Part shown: one piece after another, positions 29,365 to 38,217 of the stretch
Layout of the letters: each line of letters starts with the position of its first letter
Numbering within the stretch: the stretch's first letter is position 1
From: Butyrivibrio sp.
Lineage (GTDB): Bacteria; Bacillota; Clostridia; Lachnospirales; Lachnospiraceae
Direction: 5' to 3'
NCBI GenBank assembly: GCA_017446685.1
Contig: JAFSQI010000109.1
Coordinates: forward strand, 1 to 38,217
Length of the DNA stretch: 38,217 nt
Position numbers and translations under genes: made by a program
The notes under the pieces: model-generated
Database searches by the model: none
Seen by the model: only the letters and a program-made list of their open reading frames with translations
What the model was told of the DNA's origin: nothing

Positions 29365-32300
29365 TCAGACCTTCTCAACACCAATAGTAACCTTCTCGCC
29401 ATTGATATCCCACTCTTTTGCATTAGCTACATCTGATCCATATACAATATCATTTGCAAGAACCTTGGTTGAAATGCTGTCTGCATTTGCCTTAACTATC
29501 TCAGCAAGCTTATCGTTTCCGTTAAGAGATACCTTGATGTGATCCATAACTTCAAAGCCTGAATCCTTACGCATAGTCTGTACTTTACTGATGACTTCAA
29601 GAACAAAGCCCTCATTAATAAGCTCTTCTGAAAGGTTTGTATCAAGAACAACAGTAATTCCCCAGTTTTCCTGAGAAATGAAGCCTTCCTTCTGCGCCAT
29701 CTCTATAAGAAGATCTTCTTTTACAAGTTCAACATCAACATCATTTACAGTAAACTTGATTGAACCGCTGTTGTTAAGCTCATCCATTGTAGCATTGCCA
29801 TCGAGCTCTGCAAGATAATTCTTGATTGCTCCGATATTCTTGCCATATTTAGGTCCCAGAGTCTTAAGCTGAGGCTTGAAGCTGTAACTTGTAAAGTCTC
29901 TAACATCATCTGTAAATGAAACATTCTTTACATTGAGCTCTTCTCTGATAATATCTGTGTAGAACTCTCCAACAGTCTCCTCTGCTTTAACATACATCTG
30001 ACCGATTGGCTGACGGTTCTTTATATTTGCTGCATTTCTTGCTGCTCTACCAAGTACAACGATATCAAGTACTTCTTCCATGTCTTTTTCAAGCTTGCTG
30101 TCGATAAGTGACTCATCTACAGCAGGGAAGTCACAAAGATGTATACTCTCAGGAGCATCTGTAAAGCTCTTTCTGACAAGGTTCTGATAGATTTCTTCTG
30201 TCATAAACGGAACCATAGGAGCTGCTGCCTTTGATACAGTTACAAGTGCTGTATAAAGTGTCATATAAGCAGAAATCTTATCCTGTTCCATTCCCTTAGC
30301 CCAGAATCTCTCACGAGAACGACGAACATACCAGTTGGACATTTCGTCAACAAAGTTATCCAGCGCTTTTCCTGCTTCAGGGATTCTGTAGTTATTGAGA
30401 TTCTCATCAACTGCTTTTACGCAACTGTTTAACTTGGAAAGAAGCCATTTATCCATAACTGTAAGCTTATCAAGCTCAAGCTTGTAGTTGGCAGCATCAA
30501 ATCCATCAATGTTTGCATAAAGAACAAAGAATGCATAAGTGTTCCAAAGAGTACCAAGGAACTTTCTCTGGCCTTCCATAACCGCATCACCTGAGAAACG
30601 GCTTGGAAGCCATGGAGCACTGTTAGTGTAGAAATACCATCTGATTGCATCAGCACCGTACTTCTGAAGTGCATCAAAAGGATCTACGGCATTGCCCTTG
30701 GACTTACTCATCTTCTGTCCATTCTCATCCTGAACGAGACCAAGAACGATTACATTCTTGAAAGCAGGCTTATTAAAGAGAAGAGTAGCCTCAGCGTGAA
30801 GTGAATAGAACCATCCTCTTGTCTGGTCTACAGCCTCTGAAATAAACTCAGCAGGGAACTGCTTTTCGAAGAGCTCCTTGTTTTCAAATGGATAGTGGAG
30901 CTGTGCAAAAGGCATTGCTCCTGAATCGAACCAGCAGTCAATAACTTCTTTTACCCTGTGCATCTTCTTTCCGCACTTAGGACATGTAATTTCAAATTTA
31001 TCAATATATGGTCTATGAAGCTCAACTGTCTCAGCAGCAGGATCGCCTGAAAGCTCAGCCAGTTCTTTTCTTGAACCAACAGAAAGCTGATGGCCGCAAT
31101 CATCGCACTCCCAGATATTAAGTGGTGTTCCCCAATATCTGTCACGGGAAATACCCCAATCCTGGATGTTTTCAAGCCAGTCACCAAAACGTCCCTTACC
31201 GATTGATTCAGGAACCCAGTTGATTTCTTTGTTATTGCGGATAAGATCTTCTTTAACCTCTGTAACCTTAATAAACCATGAAGAACGTGCATAGTAAAGA
31301 AGCGGTGTTCCACATCTCCAACAGTGAGGATAATCATGTTCCATCTTAGGTGCGCCAAACAAAAGACCTCTCTTGTCAAGATCTTTTAAAACCTCTGGAT
31401 CTGCACTAATTGCGCCTTCATCCATTTCCTTCTGTGTAGGTTTACATCTCATTCCTGCAAAAGGAGTTTCTGGTTTCAAACGTCCCTGAGCATCTACCAT
31501 CTGAACAAGCGGCGCATCATACTTACGTCCTACTCTTGCGTCATCTTCACCGAAAGCAGGAGCAATATGAACTATACCAGTACCATCCGTCATAGTTACA
31601 TATGTGTCACAGTAGATAAAGAATGCCTTCTTGTGCTGTTTTTCAGTCTCATCTGCAGCACACTGATAAAGAGGTTCATACTCTTTGTACTCAAGATCTG
31701 TTCCAACATATGTTTCAAGAACTTCGTATGCCTTTTCGCCTTCCTCTTTTGCAAGAGCGCCAAGAACGTTATCTGCAAGTGCCTGTGCAAGATAGTAAAC
31801 ATTGCCATCAGCTGCCTTAACCTTGATATATTTTTCATCAGGGTTTACGCAAAGACCGATATTGGAAGGAAGTGTCCATGGTGTTGTTGTCCAGGCAAGG
31901 AAATAAGCATCCTCATTCTTTACCTTGAAACGTACTATTGCTGAACGCTCCTTAAGAGTCTTGTATCCCTGTGCAACTTCGTGAGAAGAAAGAGGGGTAC
32001 CACAACGAGGGCAATAAGGAACTACCTTGAATCCCTTATACAAAAGACCTTTCTTCCAAATTTCATTAAGAGCCCACCATTCAGACTCGATAAAATTGTC
32101 ATCATAGGTTATGTAGGGATGCTCCATATCAGCCCAGAATCCTACTGTTCCGGAGAAATCCTCCCACATACCCTTATATTTCCAAACAGATTCCTTACAT
32201 TTTTTGATGAAAGGCTCCATTCCGTACTCTTCAATCTGCTCTTTGCCATCTAGACCAAGCATTTTCTCAACTTCGAGCTCAACAGGAAGACCATGCGTGT

Positions 32301-32556
32301 CCCATCCTGCCTTACGGGGAACTGTGTATCCTTTCATTGTGCGGTATCTGGGAATCATATCCTTTATCGCACGAGTAAGAACGTGTCCGATATGTGGCTT
32401 ACCATTGGCTGTTGGAGGACCATCATAGAACATATACATTTCACCCTTGCTGCGGGTATCAACACTCTTCTGGAATATATTTTCTTCTTTCCAGAACTTC
32501 TCGACTTCTTTTTCTCTGCCGACAAAATTCATGTCAGTTTCGACTTTGTTATACAT
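29365..32556 (-). CDS. ileS: Isoleucyl-tRNA synthetase, long eukaryotic-like type (IleS2)
   Basis: A 1063-residue class I synthetase. The HIGH motif lies in PPTANGKPHIGHVLTRAIKD (~48-67), CP1 editing domain in the middle (GWDTHGLPVELEVEK, TTTPWTLPSNIGLCV), and KMSKS in GQKMSKSKGNAVDPFDAL (~611-628). The anticodon-binding and C-terminal domains complete it. Length and the TANGKPHIGHVLTR wording fit IleS2 rather than the ~930-residue IleS1 with a terminal zinc ribbon. IleS2 enzymes are known for low mupirocin sensitivity. AAAGGAG precedes the ATG. It is expressed alone behind a T-box. Confidence 0.96.
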   Translation of the reverse strand: MYNKVETDMNFVGREKEVEKFWKEENIFQKSVDTRSKGEMYMFYDGPPTANGKPHIGHVLTRAIKDMIPRYRTMKGYTVPRKAGWDTHGLPVELEVEKMLGLDGKEQIEEYGMEPFIKKCKESVWKYKGMWEDFSGTVGFWADMEHPYITYDDNFIESEWWALNEIWKKGLLYKGFKVVPYCPRCGTPLSSHEVAQGYKTLKERSAIVRFKVKNEDAYFLAWTTTPWTLPSNIGLCVNPDEKYIKVKAADGNVYYLAQALADNVLGALAKEEGEKAYEVLETYVGTDLEYKEYEPLYQCAADETEKQHKKAFFIYCDTYVTMTDGTGIVHIAPAFGEDDARVGRKYDAPLVQMVDAQGRLKPETPFAGMRCKPTQKEMDEGAISADPEVLKDLDKRGLLFGAPKMEHDYPHCWRCGTPLLYYARSSWFIKVTEVKEDLIRNNKEINWVPESIGKGRFGDWLENIQDWGISRDRYWGTPLNIWECDDCGHQLSVGSRKELAELSGDPAAETVELHRPYIDKFEITCPKCGKKMHRVKEVIDCWFDSGAMPFAQLHYPFENKELFEKQFPAEFISEAVDQTRGWFYSLHAEATLLFNKPAFKNVIVLGLVQDENGQKMSKSKGNAVDPFDALQKYGADAIRWYFYTNSAPWLPSRFSGDAVMEGQRKFLGTLWNTYAFFVLYANIDGFDAANYKLELDKLTVMDKWLLSKLNSCVKAVDENLNNYRIPEAGKALDNFVDEMSNWYVRRSRERFWAKGMEQDKISAYMTLYTALVTVSKAAAPMVPFMTEEIYQNLVRKSFTDAPESIHLCDFPAVDESLIDSKLEKDMEEVLDIVVLGRAARNAANIKNRQPIGQMYVKAEETVGEFYTDIIREELNVKNVSFTDDVRDFTSYSFKPQLKTLGPKYGKNIGAIKNYLAELDGNATMDELNNSGSIKFTVNDVDVELVKEDLLIEMAQKEGFISQENWGITVVLDTNLSEELINEGFVLEVISKVQTMRKDSGFEVMDHIKVSLNGNDKLAEIVKANADSISTKVLANDIVYGSDVANAKEWDINGEKVTIGVEKV

Positions 32557-32574: not shown

Positions 32575-32608
32575 ATAAAAAAACCTCGTCCCTGTAAAAA
32601 GGACGAGG
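32575..32608 (-). terminator. T-box-controlled terminator before ileS
   Basis: An 8-bp GC-rich stem (CCTCGTCC 32584-32591 with GGACGAGG 32601-32608) followed on the minus strand by seven or more U residues. Confidence 0.88.
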
Positions 32609-32850
32609 CTCTGTTTTCTCGTTAACCACCTGTTTACACATACGCGCAGAAAATAATCTGTTGAATACGTTTCCCAATAACGCAGGGGACGCGTCAGAAT
32701 CTAATCGTATCAACATACACCTTTCGATTCTGCAGCTCAGAAGTGATTTTCAACAACCATTACTCGTACCGGCTCACACCAACCGCCGGCTCTCTGCAAA
32801 CTTTCAAAAGTCATCTACTGTCTTCGTCACAGCCTTTATTTAATCTATTT
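32575..32850 (-). promoter_or_regulatory. T-box leader (isoleucine-specific) of ileS
   Basis: The minus-strand leader has T-box landmarks: stem I with GACGAAGACAGTAG and AGAGAGCCGGCGGTTGGTGTGAG-type AG-bulge/distal-loop segments, a specifier region AAAATCACTTCTGAGCTGC in which ATC (complement of 32745-32747) is an Ile codon, and a T-box-like ACAGGTGGTTAACGAG (complement of 32618-32633). A terminator stem CCTCGTCC/GGACGAGG follows (32584-32608) with a T run. CGAG beside the T-box can pair with the 5' arm of the terminator, giving the antiterminator. Uncharged isoleucine tRNA would permit ileS transcription. Confidence 0.88.
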
Positions 32851-32861
32851 ATAATGTTGAC

Positions 32862-32890
32862 ATTTTACTACTTATTTTTCTTTATTGCAA
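32862..32890 (-). promoter_or_regulatory. Sigma-A type promoter of the ileS T-box transcript
   Basis: -35 TTGCAA (32885-32890), 17-bp spacer, -10 TAAAAT (32862-32867) on the minus strand, just upstream of the T-box stem I. Confidence 0.6.
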
Positions 32891-32922
32891 TAATAAAAAG
32901 CTCTTATTGTCCACCTTCTGAA

Positions 32923-33083
32923 CTACTCTCGTTACTGTTCACTCGCATACTGCTCGCTCCAGTAACCACTTCGCGCATTCATTCCAAATCGACTTCGTCG
33001 ATGGAATGCGCTCACTCCTGCATCAGGTTTTCACGAAATGCGCAGCTTAGTGCGCATTTCTGTCTGAACAGTAACCTACTCTC
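32923..33083. mobile_element. MITE-like element, copy 1, with 8-bp target-site duplication
   Basis: The 145-bp element (32931-33075) starts with GTTACTGTTCA and ends with its exact reverse complement TGAACAGTAAC. It is flanked on both sides by CTACTCTC (32923-32930 and 33076-33083), an 8-bp direct repeat as made by transposition. Inside are a 10-bp perfect hairpin (GAAATGCGCA, loop GCTTAG, TGCGCATTTC, 33035-33060) and a second stem (CATTCC..ATCGA/TCGAT.GGAATG, 32980-33008). It encodes nothing. It lies 8 bases beyond the stop codon of the hydrolase gene and may act as its 3' end. Confidence 0.85.
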
Positions 33084-34580
33084 TTAGGGTTGCGACTCAT
33101 CATTTTGATTTTCTTGCGACTGACTTTCCTCAGGCTGAGTCTCTTCAGTTTGAGTTTCTTCTGATGGTGCTTCTTCCGTTGGTGTTTCTTCTGTTGGTGT
33201 TTCTTCTGTTGGTGTTTCTTCTGATGGTGCTTCTTCTGTTGGTGTTTCTTCCGGCTGCGGCTGCTCTGTAGAAGCCTCCTCATTTGACTGAGTGTTTTCT
33301 TCCGTAGTCTCAGTAACTTCCGGTTTATTAGTAACCCATCTGTAAAAGAATGCATGGTTACCAATCATTGTATATTCGCTGATTCCATAATAATCAGCAT
33401 AATATTTTGTCATAAAAAACAGATAATCTCCCACACGGGCTCCGTCAAGAACCTCCTGTGCAGCCTGTATACATGTAGAATTTGCTCCGTTTGCAATGAT
33501 CAGCTCTACCTTTCCTGATCTATAAGAAGCAAACTGCATTGTCTGAGTAATTACACCAATAATAGTATTTGGAAATGCCGAGCTCTTAACTCTGTTCATT
33601 ATTACAGAACCAACCGCAAGCTTTCCGGTGTAAGATTCTCCACCTGCCTCTGCCTGAATCGTTGCAGCAAGCCACTCAAGTTCTGTCGCATTAGCTGCAT
33701 AAGATCCTGATGTATCTTCCTTGGTAAGAGCAAGCCTTTCAGCAACCTGCTGAGCCAGCTTTGCCTGCGCAGCCGCTGTCTGTGATTCCAAAGCCTTCAT
33801 TTTGTCATCTAAAGACTTTAACTGACTGTCATAATCTGCCAGCTTACTTTTTTCAGAAGTAATAGAATTATTGGTCGATGTAAGCTGACCTTTTACAGCA
33901 TCAGTAAGAGATGCAAGCTCATCATGCTTTTCATCCAGCATATCCTGGTATTCATCAAGCTGTGCCTCTTTTTCTTCTACCGCTTCAGTCTGTGTTTTTA
34001 TATTGTCCTGAAGCGCCTGATACTCAGCAATTATTCTCTTATCGTATCTGATAATTGCATTAAGATATTCAAACTTAGTCAGAAATTCCTGAATTGAGCC
34101 CGACTCCAGCATTATTCGCAAAAGACCTTTCGAACCGCCGTTTTCATAGGTTGACTTTAAGCGCATCTTCAAAAGCTCATAACGCTCTTTTTCCTGCTCT
34201 TTAGCCTCCTGAAGCTCATTATCCAGTCTGACAATCTCTGAAGAGACTTCCGCCATTTTACTCTCCGCCTCGGAAATCTCTTCATTCAGATCGTTTAACT
34301 TACTGGAATATCCATTAATTGTGTTCTGAAGTGCAGAACTCTGATTCTGTAAACTTGAAATATTACTCTGAGTCTGATCCTTTTGCCCCTGCAGCGCTGA
34401 AATAGCATCCTTTGTCTCTTTTGTCTGCTTTTCAAGATTGGAAATCGTATCCTTTGTTTCCTGTTCCTGCTGCTGCATGTTAGCAATTGTTTCATTGTAC
34501 TCCTCAGCACTTACAGCAAGGGAAAACTGCCCTGTGCCAAGCACAAGTATCAACATTCCCAACAGTATTCTTTTTTTCAT
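33084..34580 (-). CDS. Secreted coiled-coil cell-wall hydrolase (SleB/Hydrolase_2 domain)
   Basis: About 498 residues from the ATG at 34580, preferred because GAGGG lies 5 bases upstream and the protein then starts with a signal peptide (MKKRILLGMLILVLGTGQ, cleavage near VSA-EE). Residues ~27-275 form a long coiled coil of the PcsB/EnvC type. Residues ~297-415 are a SleB-like Hydrolase_2 domain (LEWLAATIQAEAGGESYTGK, LAVGSVIMNRVKSSAFP, catalytic Glu in AEAGGE). The tail (~420-498) is acidic with a pentapeptide repeat (EETPT/EEAPS). This suggests a septal or wall-remodelling amidase/lytic enzyme whose coiled coil could be an autoinhibitory or FtsEX-type partner. Expressed singly. Confidence 0.88.
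   Translation of the reverse strand: MKKRILLGMLILVLGTGQFSLAVSAEEYNETIANMQQQEQETKDTISNLEKQTKETKDAISALQGQKDQTQSNISSLQNQSSALQNTINGYSSKLNDLNEEISEAESKMAEVSSEIVRLDNELQEAKEQEKERYELLKMRLKSTYENGGSKGLLRIMLESGSIQEFLTKFEYLNAIIRYDKRIIAEYQALQDNIKTQTEAVEEKEAQLDEYQDMLDEKHDELASLTDAVKGQLTSTNNSITSEKSKLADYDSQLKSLDDKMKALESQTAAAQAKLAQQVAERLALTKEDTSGSYAANATELEWLAATIQAEAGGESYTGKLAVGSVIMNRVKSSAFPNTIIGVITQTMQFASYRSGKVELIIANGANSTCIQAAQEVLDGARVGDYLFFMTKYYADYYGISEYTMIGNHAFFYRWVTNKPEVTETTEENTQSNEEASTEQPQPEETPTEEAPSEETPTEETPTEETPTEEAPSEETQTEETQPEESQSQENQNDESQP
33156..33245. repeat. Six tandem 15-bp units inside the hydrolase gene
   Basis: Units of TTCTTCTG(A/T)TGGTG(C/T) repeat six times in frame. They encode the pentapeptide repeats EEAPS and EETPT on the minus strand. 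The near-identity of units predicts length variation between strains. Confidence 0.95.
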
Positions 34581-34709
34581 ATATCCCTCACCAAAGTGCA
34601 TTTGAACGACAGATTCATCTGACGTTTTTACTATAAATAAATGTCACTCACTACTAATTATATTCAACAACGTTCACGAGTATATCATAATCTAAATCCC
34701 AAGTGTATA

Positions 34710-38078: not shown

Positions 38079-38217
38079 GTTACTGTTCACTCGCATACTG
38101 CTCGCTCCAGTAACCACTTCGCGCATTCATTCCAAATCGACTTCGTCGATGGAATGCGCTCACTCCTGCATCATGTTCTCACGAAATGCGCAGCTTAGTG
38201 CGCATTTCTGTCTGAAC
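38079..38217. mobile_element. MITE-like element, copy 2, truncated by window edge
   Basis: 139 bases match copy 1 in the same orientation with two substitutions (CATCAGGTTTTC reads CATCATGTTCTC). It begins with the same GTTACTGTTCA terminus and is cut 6 bases before the expected end. The left flank is AACACTAC, so the same 8 bases should follow the missing right end. Confidence 0.85.

Follow-up and report, generated by a model that had tools for sequence, protein, structure and literature searches.

Bacterial MITEs are usually regarded as remains of insertion sequences. The bcr1 repeats of the Bacillus cereus group are mobile repeats of ~150 bp with a conserved folded transcript, REP/BIME elements are palindromic and often lie behind stop codons, and the IS66 family is characterized by GTAA ends and an 8-bp duplication. 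Prokaryotic MITEs are short, non-coding sequences with inverted ends and direct repeats, whose transcripts have stable folds (PMC10969869), the RU-type small mobile sequences of enterobacteria are intergenic MITE-like repeats of 103–168 bp (PMC2229807, PMC2759123), and REPs have a length of 20–40 bp (PMC3733652).

The element analysed here, 145 bp long, lies in a contig of Butyrivibrio sp. (JAFSQI010000109.1, assembly GCA_017446685.1), the whole of whose 38,217 nucleotides is hereafter called the window. It shares with prokaryotic MITEs the short non-coding form, the inverted ends, the direct repeats and the folding; however, the passages of the review on this subject treat fold stability and not the covariation of a core across genera, and its main text contains none of the terms Lachnospir, Clostridi, 8-bp or stop codon (PMC10969869). 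The RU-type sequences, which occur in other taxa, resemble the element in being intergenic and MITE-like. The element, with its 145 bp, its inverted ends and its 8-bp duplications, differs from REPs of 20–40 bp, and for the same reasons it does not fit the REP/BIME type with RAYT either (a palindrome of 20–40 bp with a GTAG or CGTC tag). The bcr1 repeats are similar as mobile folded repeats of ~150 bp, but have different ends and a different duplication. With the IS66 family, the element has the 8-bp duplication in common, and many of its relatives in other genera begin with GTAAC, whereas several of the IS66 genes examined are, as judged by eye, followed by ends of the GTAAG type. No paper on this element was recognized among the open-licence PMC papers searched.

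The element and its neighbouring genes

The features of the locus are collected in Table 1. On the forward strand, CTACTCTC (32923-32930) is followed by GTTACTGTTCA (32931-32941) and, at the other side of the element, TGAACAGTAAC (33065-33075) is followed by CTACTCTC (33076-33083) and by TTA (33084-33086), which on the minus strand reads TAA and closes the ORF 33084-34601. Both the terminal inverted repeats, over 11 bp, and the 8-bp duplication are exact, and nothing but this duplication separates the stop codon from the element, which confirmed in the sequence the MITE described in the earlier note (145 bp, 11-bp inverted ends, 8 bp behind a stop). Reading along the minus strand, the order is hydrolase, stop codon, duplication, element (33075 to 32931), duplication, promoter-like site, T-box and tRNA synthetase, the latter being inferred from its size, domains and T-box to be isoleucyl-tRNA synthetase (ileS). 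As a side observation, the C-terminus of the hydrolase is encoded by a run of short repeats (window 33090-33300), a region in which the ortholog of genome G040 differs.

Table 1. Features of the locus in the window and the basis of their assignment.
Feature	Position	Strand	Basis
MITE, 145 bp	32931..33075	- (= RNA-like strand)	read in sequence, genome copies, flanking duplications
Left terminal inverted repeat, GTTACTGTTCA on minus strand	33065..33075	-	sequence
Right terminal inverted repeat, TGAACAGTAAC on minus strand	32931..32941	-	sequence
Target-site duplication copy 1, CTACTCTC, separating stop codon from element	33076..33083	.	sequence
Target-site duplication copy 2, CTACTCTC	32923..32930	.	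sequence
Core with conserved structure (P1, linker and P2), matched by model R1 over its full length	32973..33060	-	91.6 bits at L001:1543-1630 (R1 was built from closely related copies)
Hairpin P1, 10 bp	33035..33060	-	seed alignment
Hairpin P2, asymmetric internal loop	32973..33011	-	seed alignment
Hairpin P3, internal GTTACTG (32960-32966) with terminal CAGTAAC (32931-32937)	32931..32966	-	sequence, pairing count
Upstream gene, cell-wall hydrolase (Hydrolase_2, PcsB coiled coil)	33084..34601	-	ORF list, domain match
T-box leader of downstream gene	32596..32839	-	Rfam scan of window
Downstream gene, class I tRNA synthetase	29365..32556	-	ORF list, domain match
Second copy, clipped by contig end, 139 of 145 bp	38079..38217	-	genome match, same window

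No transposase gene is present in the 145 bp, as the ORFs of at least 80 aa that touch the element cross its borders (32743-33087 on the plus strand and 33047-33364 on the minus strand). The fold energy was far below that of shuffled sequences, with z-scores of -4.4 for the minus strand and -6.9 for the plus strand (0 of 200 shuffles each). The element is therefore non-coding and strongly folding, as had been claimed. Its hairpins could, according to the earlier note, define the 3′ end of the hydrolase mRNA; a consensus scan found no intrinsic terminator on its minus strand.

Copies, target sites and empty sites

A total of 43 matches to the 145-bp query were found in the 3.24-Mb genome, 26 of them spanning 137–145 bp at 89–100% identity, a count in which one physical copy may appear on two contigs, as many matches lie at contig ends, where a repeat is expected to break the assembly. 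Moreover, TGAACAGTAAC occurred 68 times in the genome, compared to twice for its reversed control, and these figures together with the 43 matches indicate that the element is not a chance feature. Mobilization by a transposase, as proposed in the earlier note, was borne out by the 8-bp duplication at all seven own-genome copies of 144-145 bp having both flanks on one contig (6 exact and one with 7 of 8 positions). The same genome harboured another subfamily, 132 bp long, whose ends are nearly identical to those of the element but whose stems differ; it also has 8-bp duplications, and seven copies had the duplication (L031, L036, L043, L044, L046, L058 and L059; 5 exact, two with 7 of 8), as well as a 187-bp variant and two 66-bp forms without the core, both with exact 8-bp duplications (L055 and L057). 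A 219-bp element, GTTACAATTCAG...CTGAATTGTAAC, was also observed at L027:1235-1453 with the exact 8-bp duplication CTTAATTA.

When duplication lengths from 2 to 12 bp were scanned openly, 8 bp came out best in 73 of 155 core hits, while 46 had no duplication and the rest were scattered, 12 of them at length 2. Under other scan settings, 8 bp was the best length in 76 of these 155 hits (first set) and in 46 of 110 hits of a second set, 5 of which repeat sites of the first. The target was AT-rich, with a purine at position 1 in 76%.

Regarding the genus, 20 of 41 genomes matched the element (own genome counted), and several of them carried their own near-identical, species-specific burst of copies. 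An empty site of the kind to be sought in relatives was found: in genome G040, the neighbour genes of the window adjoin without the element, which is a clear syntenic empty site, and the core was present only in the window's own locus out of 25 orthologous loci and absent from the other 24, these being matched on the ileS or the hydrolase side, with the gene pair not shown to be kept together in all 24. Neither a blastn search of plasmids with the 145 bp nor a search of viral contigs with one exact pattern gave any match. The element is thus real, recently inserted, mobile and devoid of a gene of its own.

A structured core with covarying stems

The core was recognized because some matches in the genus covered only the interior of the element, without its ends. 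It comprises hairpin P1, the linker GURAGAANNUGAUNCA, hairpin P2 and then hairpin P3, whose 3′ strand is provided by the right inverted repeat, the last 7 bases of which are shared. A seed alignment was built from 26 sequences of the window's genus alone; in it, 21 of the 24 P1/P2 pairs had changed on both sides, and 93.6% of the cells were paired, compared to 28.0–38.5% for slid controls. The seed value was reached by 0 of 500 shuffles on four measures and by 3 of 500 on a fifth, and it should be borne in mind that covariance-model alignments are biased towards the structure. The loop of P1 appeared as CACUUGCUG or CAUUUACUG, and tandem G.A/A.G stood in place of pairs 5 and 6 of P1 in 20 of 169 sequences, replacing two Watson-Crick pairs, so that the length of the helix is kept.

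As for P3, 111 distinct elements with duplications were compared: its pairing was complete (7 of 7) in 96 of them and reached at least 6 of 7 in 107, while the left and right ends paired 7 of 7 in 63, a comparison that somewhat favours P3 over the fixed end-to-end count because the best of several positions was taken (shuffle mean 4.9/7). In several types, such as the one with left GTAACTA, internal GTAACTG and right CAGTTAC, the right end fits the internal strand and not the left end. No family of Rfam 15 covered the core, either in the window at the gathering threshold or in 33 loci searched with E limits of 1 or 5.

If no RNA strand were under selection, G-U and A-C would be expected to be about equally frequent. 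Among 169 distinct sequences, 3591 cells were Watson-Crick, 101 were G-U and 33 were A-C (P-value of 3e-9). By set, G-U exceeded A-C by 22 to 6 in A2 and by 67 to 20 in A4 (64 to 20 after removal of 5 rows whose core had already been seen), while the difference in A3 alone, 15 vs. 7, was not significant (P-value of 0.13). The excess of G-U over A-C therefore points to selection on the RNA of one strand, and selection of the core as a one-strand RNA is supported by this excess together with the covariation.

These data bear on the simplest alternative, an ordinary MITE whose hairpins would be remains of the parent IS, kept through common ancestry and because the transposase recognizes them as DNA, and whose placement would be the result of purifying selection. 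The inverted ends, the 8-bp duplications and the many near-identical copies are MITE hallmarks, the AT-rich target with its initial purine is consistent with this explanation, and a loss of insertions from promoters would leave those behind stops. Nevertheless, it is unlikely, as the P1 and P2 stems show wide sequence differences between subfamilies yet keep their pairing, G-U is more frequent than A-C, and conservation is not limited to the ends but includes residues of the single-stranded linker and of the bulge.

Distribution in Lachnospiraceae

With the genus-built model, the core was found in 53 of 299 genomes of the family, representing 52 of 298 genera (E up to 0.001), and at least two core matches were present in 32 of the 53 positive genomes (up to 14 candidates scored per genome). 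In a class sample of 391 genomes, five, each of them a member of the window's genus, matched at E up to 0.0001, and none of about 375 Clostridia outside the family had the core at this threshold, 16 of the 391 genomes belonging to the family and the kinship of 366 rows being read from their sort order. Among the matches listed in a pattern scan, the records were mostly labelled as Lachnospiraceae or its genera, namely Butyrivibrio, Fusicatenibacter, Parablautia, Eisenbergiella, Lacrimispora, Acetatifactor and Candidatus Limivivens, and some carried the labels Eubacterium, Eubacteriales, Ruminococcaceae or uncultured bacterium. The idea of a small family confined to one genus was thus too narrow, the element representing a superfamily that extends through Lachnospiraceae and shares a conserved, structured core. 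The folded core common to relatives across the family is probably an RNA.

Placement relative to genes

After sites common to both sets were removed, 125 copies were considered whose duplication agreed in 7 or all 8 positions, core hits without such a duplication and hits near a locus edge having been left out beforehand. With genes called by ORF length only, 77 of these copies lay between genes of one direction, while 10 were inside a called ORF, 26 were between divergent and 7 between convergent genes, and 5 had a one-sided gene call. Sense orientation predominated among the 77 (52 sense and 25 antisense, P-value of 0.003), 59 of them were closer to a stop than to a start, and 48 lay at most 20 bp from a stop. 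Before the 5 shared sites were removed, the figures were 54:25 for sense and antisense, 60 of 79 nearer the stop and 49 of 79 within 20 bp. In the first set, the ratio was 37:16, with 44 of 53 nearer the stop, and in the second set without shared sites it was 15:9, with 15 of 24 nearer the stop, neither value of this second set being significant (both with a P-value of 0.31). By group before this removal, the genus showed 22:9 and 25 of 31 nearer the stop, while the first set showed 15:7 and 19 of 22 for the other genera. When the duplication was not required, the ratios were 75:23 in the first set and 30:18 in the second (P-value of 0.11).

The pooled data thus show a preference for gene ends and for sense orientation, which is weak in the second set alone. 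Regarding the preference for gene ends proposed in the earlier note, it held for the pooled family data but not for the own genome alone, where 7 of 10 copies were nearer the stop (P-value of 0.34, not significant); nor was there any strand bias in this genome (5:5). Promoter avoidance or insertion linked to the direction of replication could give the same placement pattern.

A mobile gene-end fold of the REP/BIME kind, acting as a 3′ mRNA stabilizer or a processing site for the upstream gene, would also explain the position right behind stop codons, the pooled sense bias and the strong folding. This reading is somewhat unlikely, given that a simple stabilizer would have no need of a conserved linker of about 20 nt.

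Furthermore, the core was present in the gap between mreB and flgG, gene names read from the sequence, in three species (L436, L461 and L080), while most of 30 fetched loci were without it. As their flanks and element types differ and most loci are empty, these copies look like separate insertions, and a riboswitch or conserved cis-element was accordingly rejected as a general reading.

Search for a transposase and a second type of ends

The earlier note had named IS66 and IS256 as the families to look at first, and neither was supported as the source of the element. No IS66 transposase (PF03050) with the same ends was found in 18 genomes, and no IS66 gene was bounded by these ends, several being followed by GTAAG-type ends as judged by eye; in a single case, an IS66 gene fragment of G107, the reverse complement of GTAACAATTCAG lay 26 bp past its stop. 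For the transposases PF00872, PF01609 and PF01610, searched in 9 genomes each, none with the same ends was found among the matches listed. In particular, the 14 Transposase_mut matches of the IS256 type, found in 7 of 9 genomes, had no matching end pair among the matches listed, and the own genome had no match of this type. Hits of IS256 and ISL3 were therefore rejected as partner on the same grounds. Moreover, no autonomous partner was found when 343 loci were examined for end pairs spanning over 400 bp, and 20 stretches with ends but no partner in three genomes were repeat fragments or chance. As the own assembly consists of 137 contigs, the parent may lie in a gap.

A DDE_Tnp_1 element of ~1.65 kb (G020 and G289) was rejected as parent and read as a guest, because it has its own ends, CAATGTCATT, and lies inside the P3 arm of the repeat. 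This IS was found inserted in the P3 arm in two genera (L359:1063-2907; L360 and L366; G289 and G020). Other copies of the CAATGTCATT ends also lay at ACTGTTC or GTGAAC-like sites, so this IS may target such hairpins.

In the genus, 14 core copies had left ends of the TATGA(C/T) or CATGA(C/T) type (including L083, L084, L101-L107 and L110). The right end of this TATGAC class was imperfectly inverted (8-13 of 14 positions), and its borders were mostly TA, some of them CA. The 2-12 bp scan gave no 8-bp duplication at these borders except for a direct repeat in L106, which is due to a tandem arrangement. This class is suggestive of a second transposon type, with one core carried by two kinds of ends.

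Such an arrangement is relevant to another explanation, according to which the structure would be needed for transposition, the core RNA or ssDNA serving as cofactor or recognition site of the transposase and any effects on the host being incidental. P3 has the right transposon end as its 3′ strand, the structure is retained in recently amplified subfamilies, and just two core-less forms were found among the own-genome elements with duplications, all of which agrees with this explanation. It is nonetheless quite unlikely, since the same core lies between other ends in the TATGAC class and the two core-less 66-bp forms carry exact 8-bp duplications, so the core is maybe not strictly needed, unless these forms shrank after insertion.

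Discussion

The reading that we prefer, with a probability of about 0.6, is a MITE with a one-strand RNA core that makes insertions at gene junctions tolerable, so that the fold has been kept by the amplifying lineages. The element is a non-autonomous DNA transposon, moved by a transposase that would recognize the ends GT(T/A)AC(T/A)(G/A)TTCA, and this putative enzyme would make staggered cuts of 8 bp, a size deduced from the duplications. In the pooled data, insertion favours the bases immediately following a stop codon and the orientation of the adjacent genes, and through this proximity to stops and this orientation the element would join mRNAs. There, the folded RNA may protect or insulate the transcript at the gene junction and keep the neighbour genes expressed; the fold would be kept in the lineages that amplify because it makes their insertions tolerable. 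In the window, the copy lies between the stop codon of the hydrolase and the synthetase gene with its T-box and promoter-like site. That relatives across the family carry the same folded core suggests that the fold itself helps the element to spread.

A bolder proposal, which we consider doubtful, goes further and takes the core as a new class of functional RNA, for instance anti-terminating or transcript-insulating. Such an RNA would be mobile, carried by at least two unrelated types of ends (the GTTAC/GTAAC type, which has 8-bp duplications, and the TATGAC type, which has TA), with one end built into the third hairpin, and would be dropped behind stops across many genera of Lachnospiraceae.

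If the preferred reading is true, MITEs can be selected as RNA, with one fold kept through the turnover of its stems and a transposon end tied to a hairpin. Among the genera sampled from this dominant gut family, about one in six has the core, and the many natural insertions behind stops would allow one to measure how a defined RNA affects the expression of an operon.
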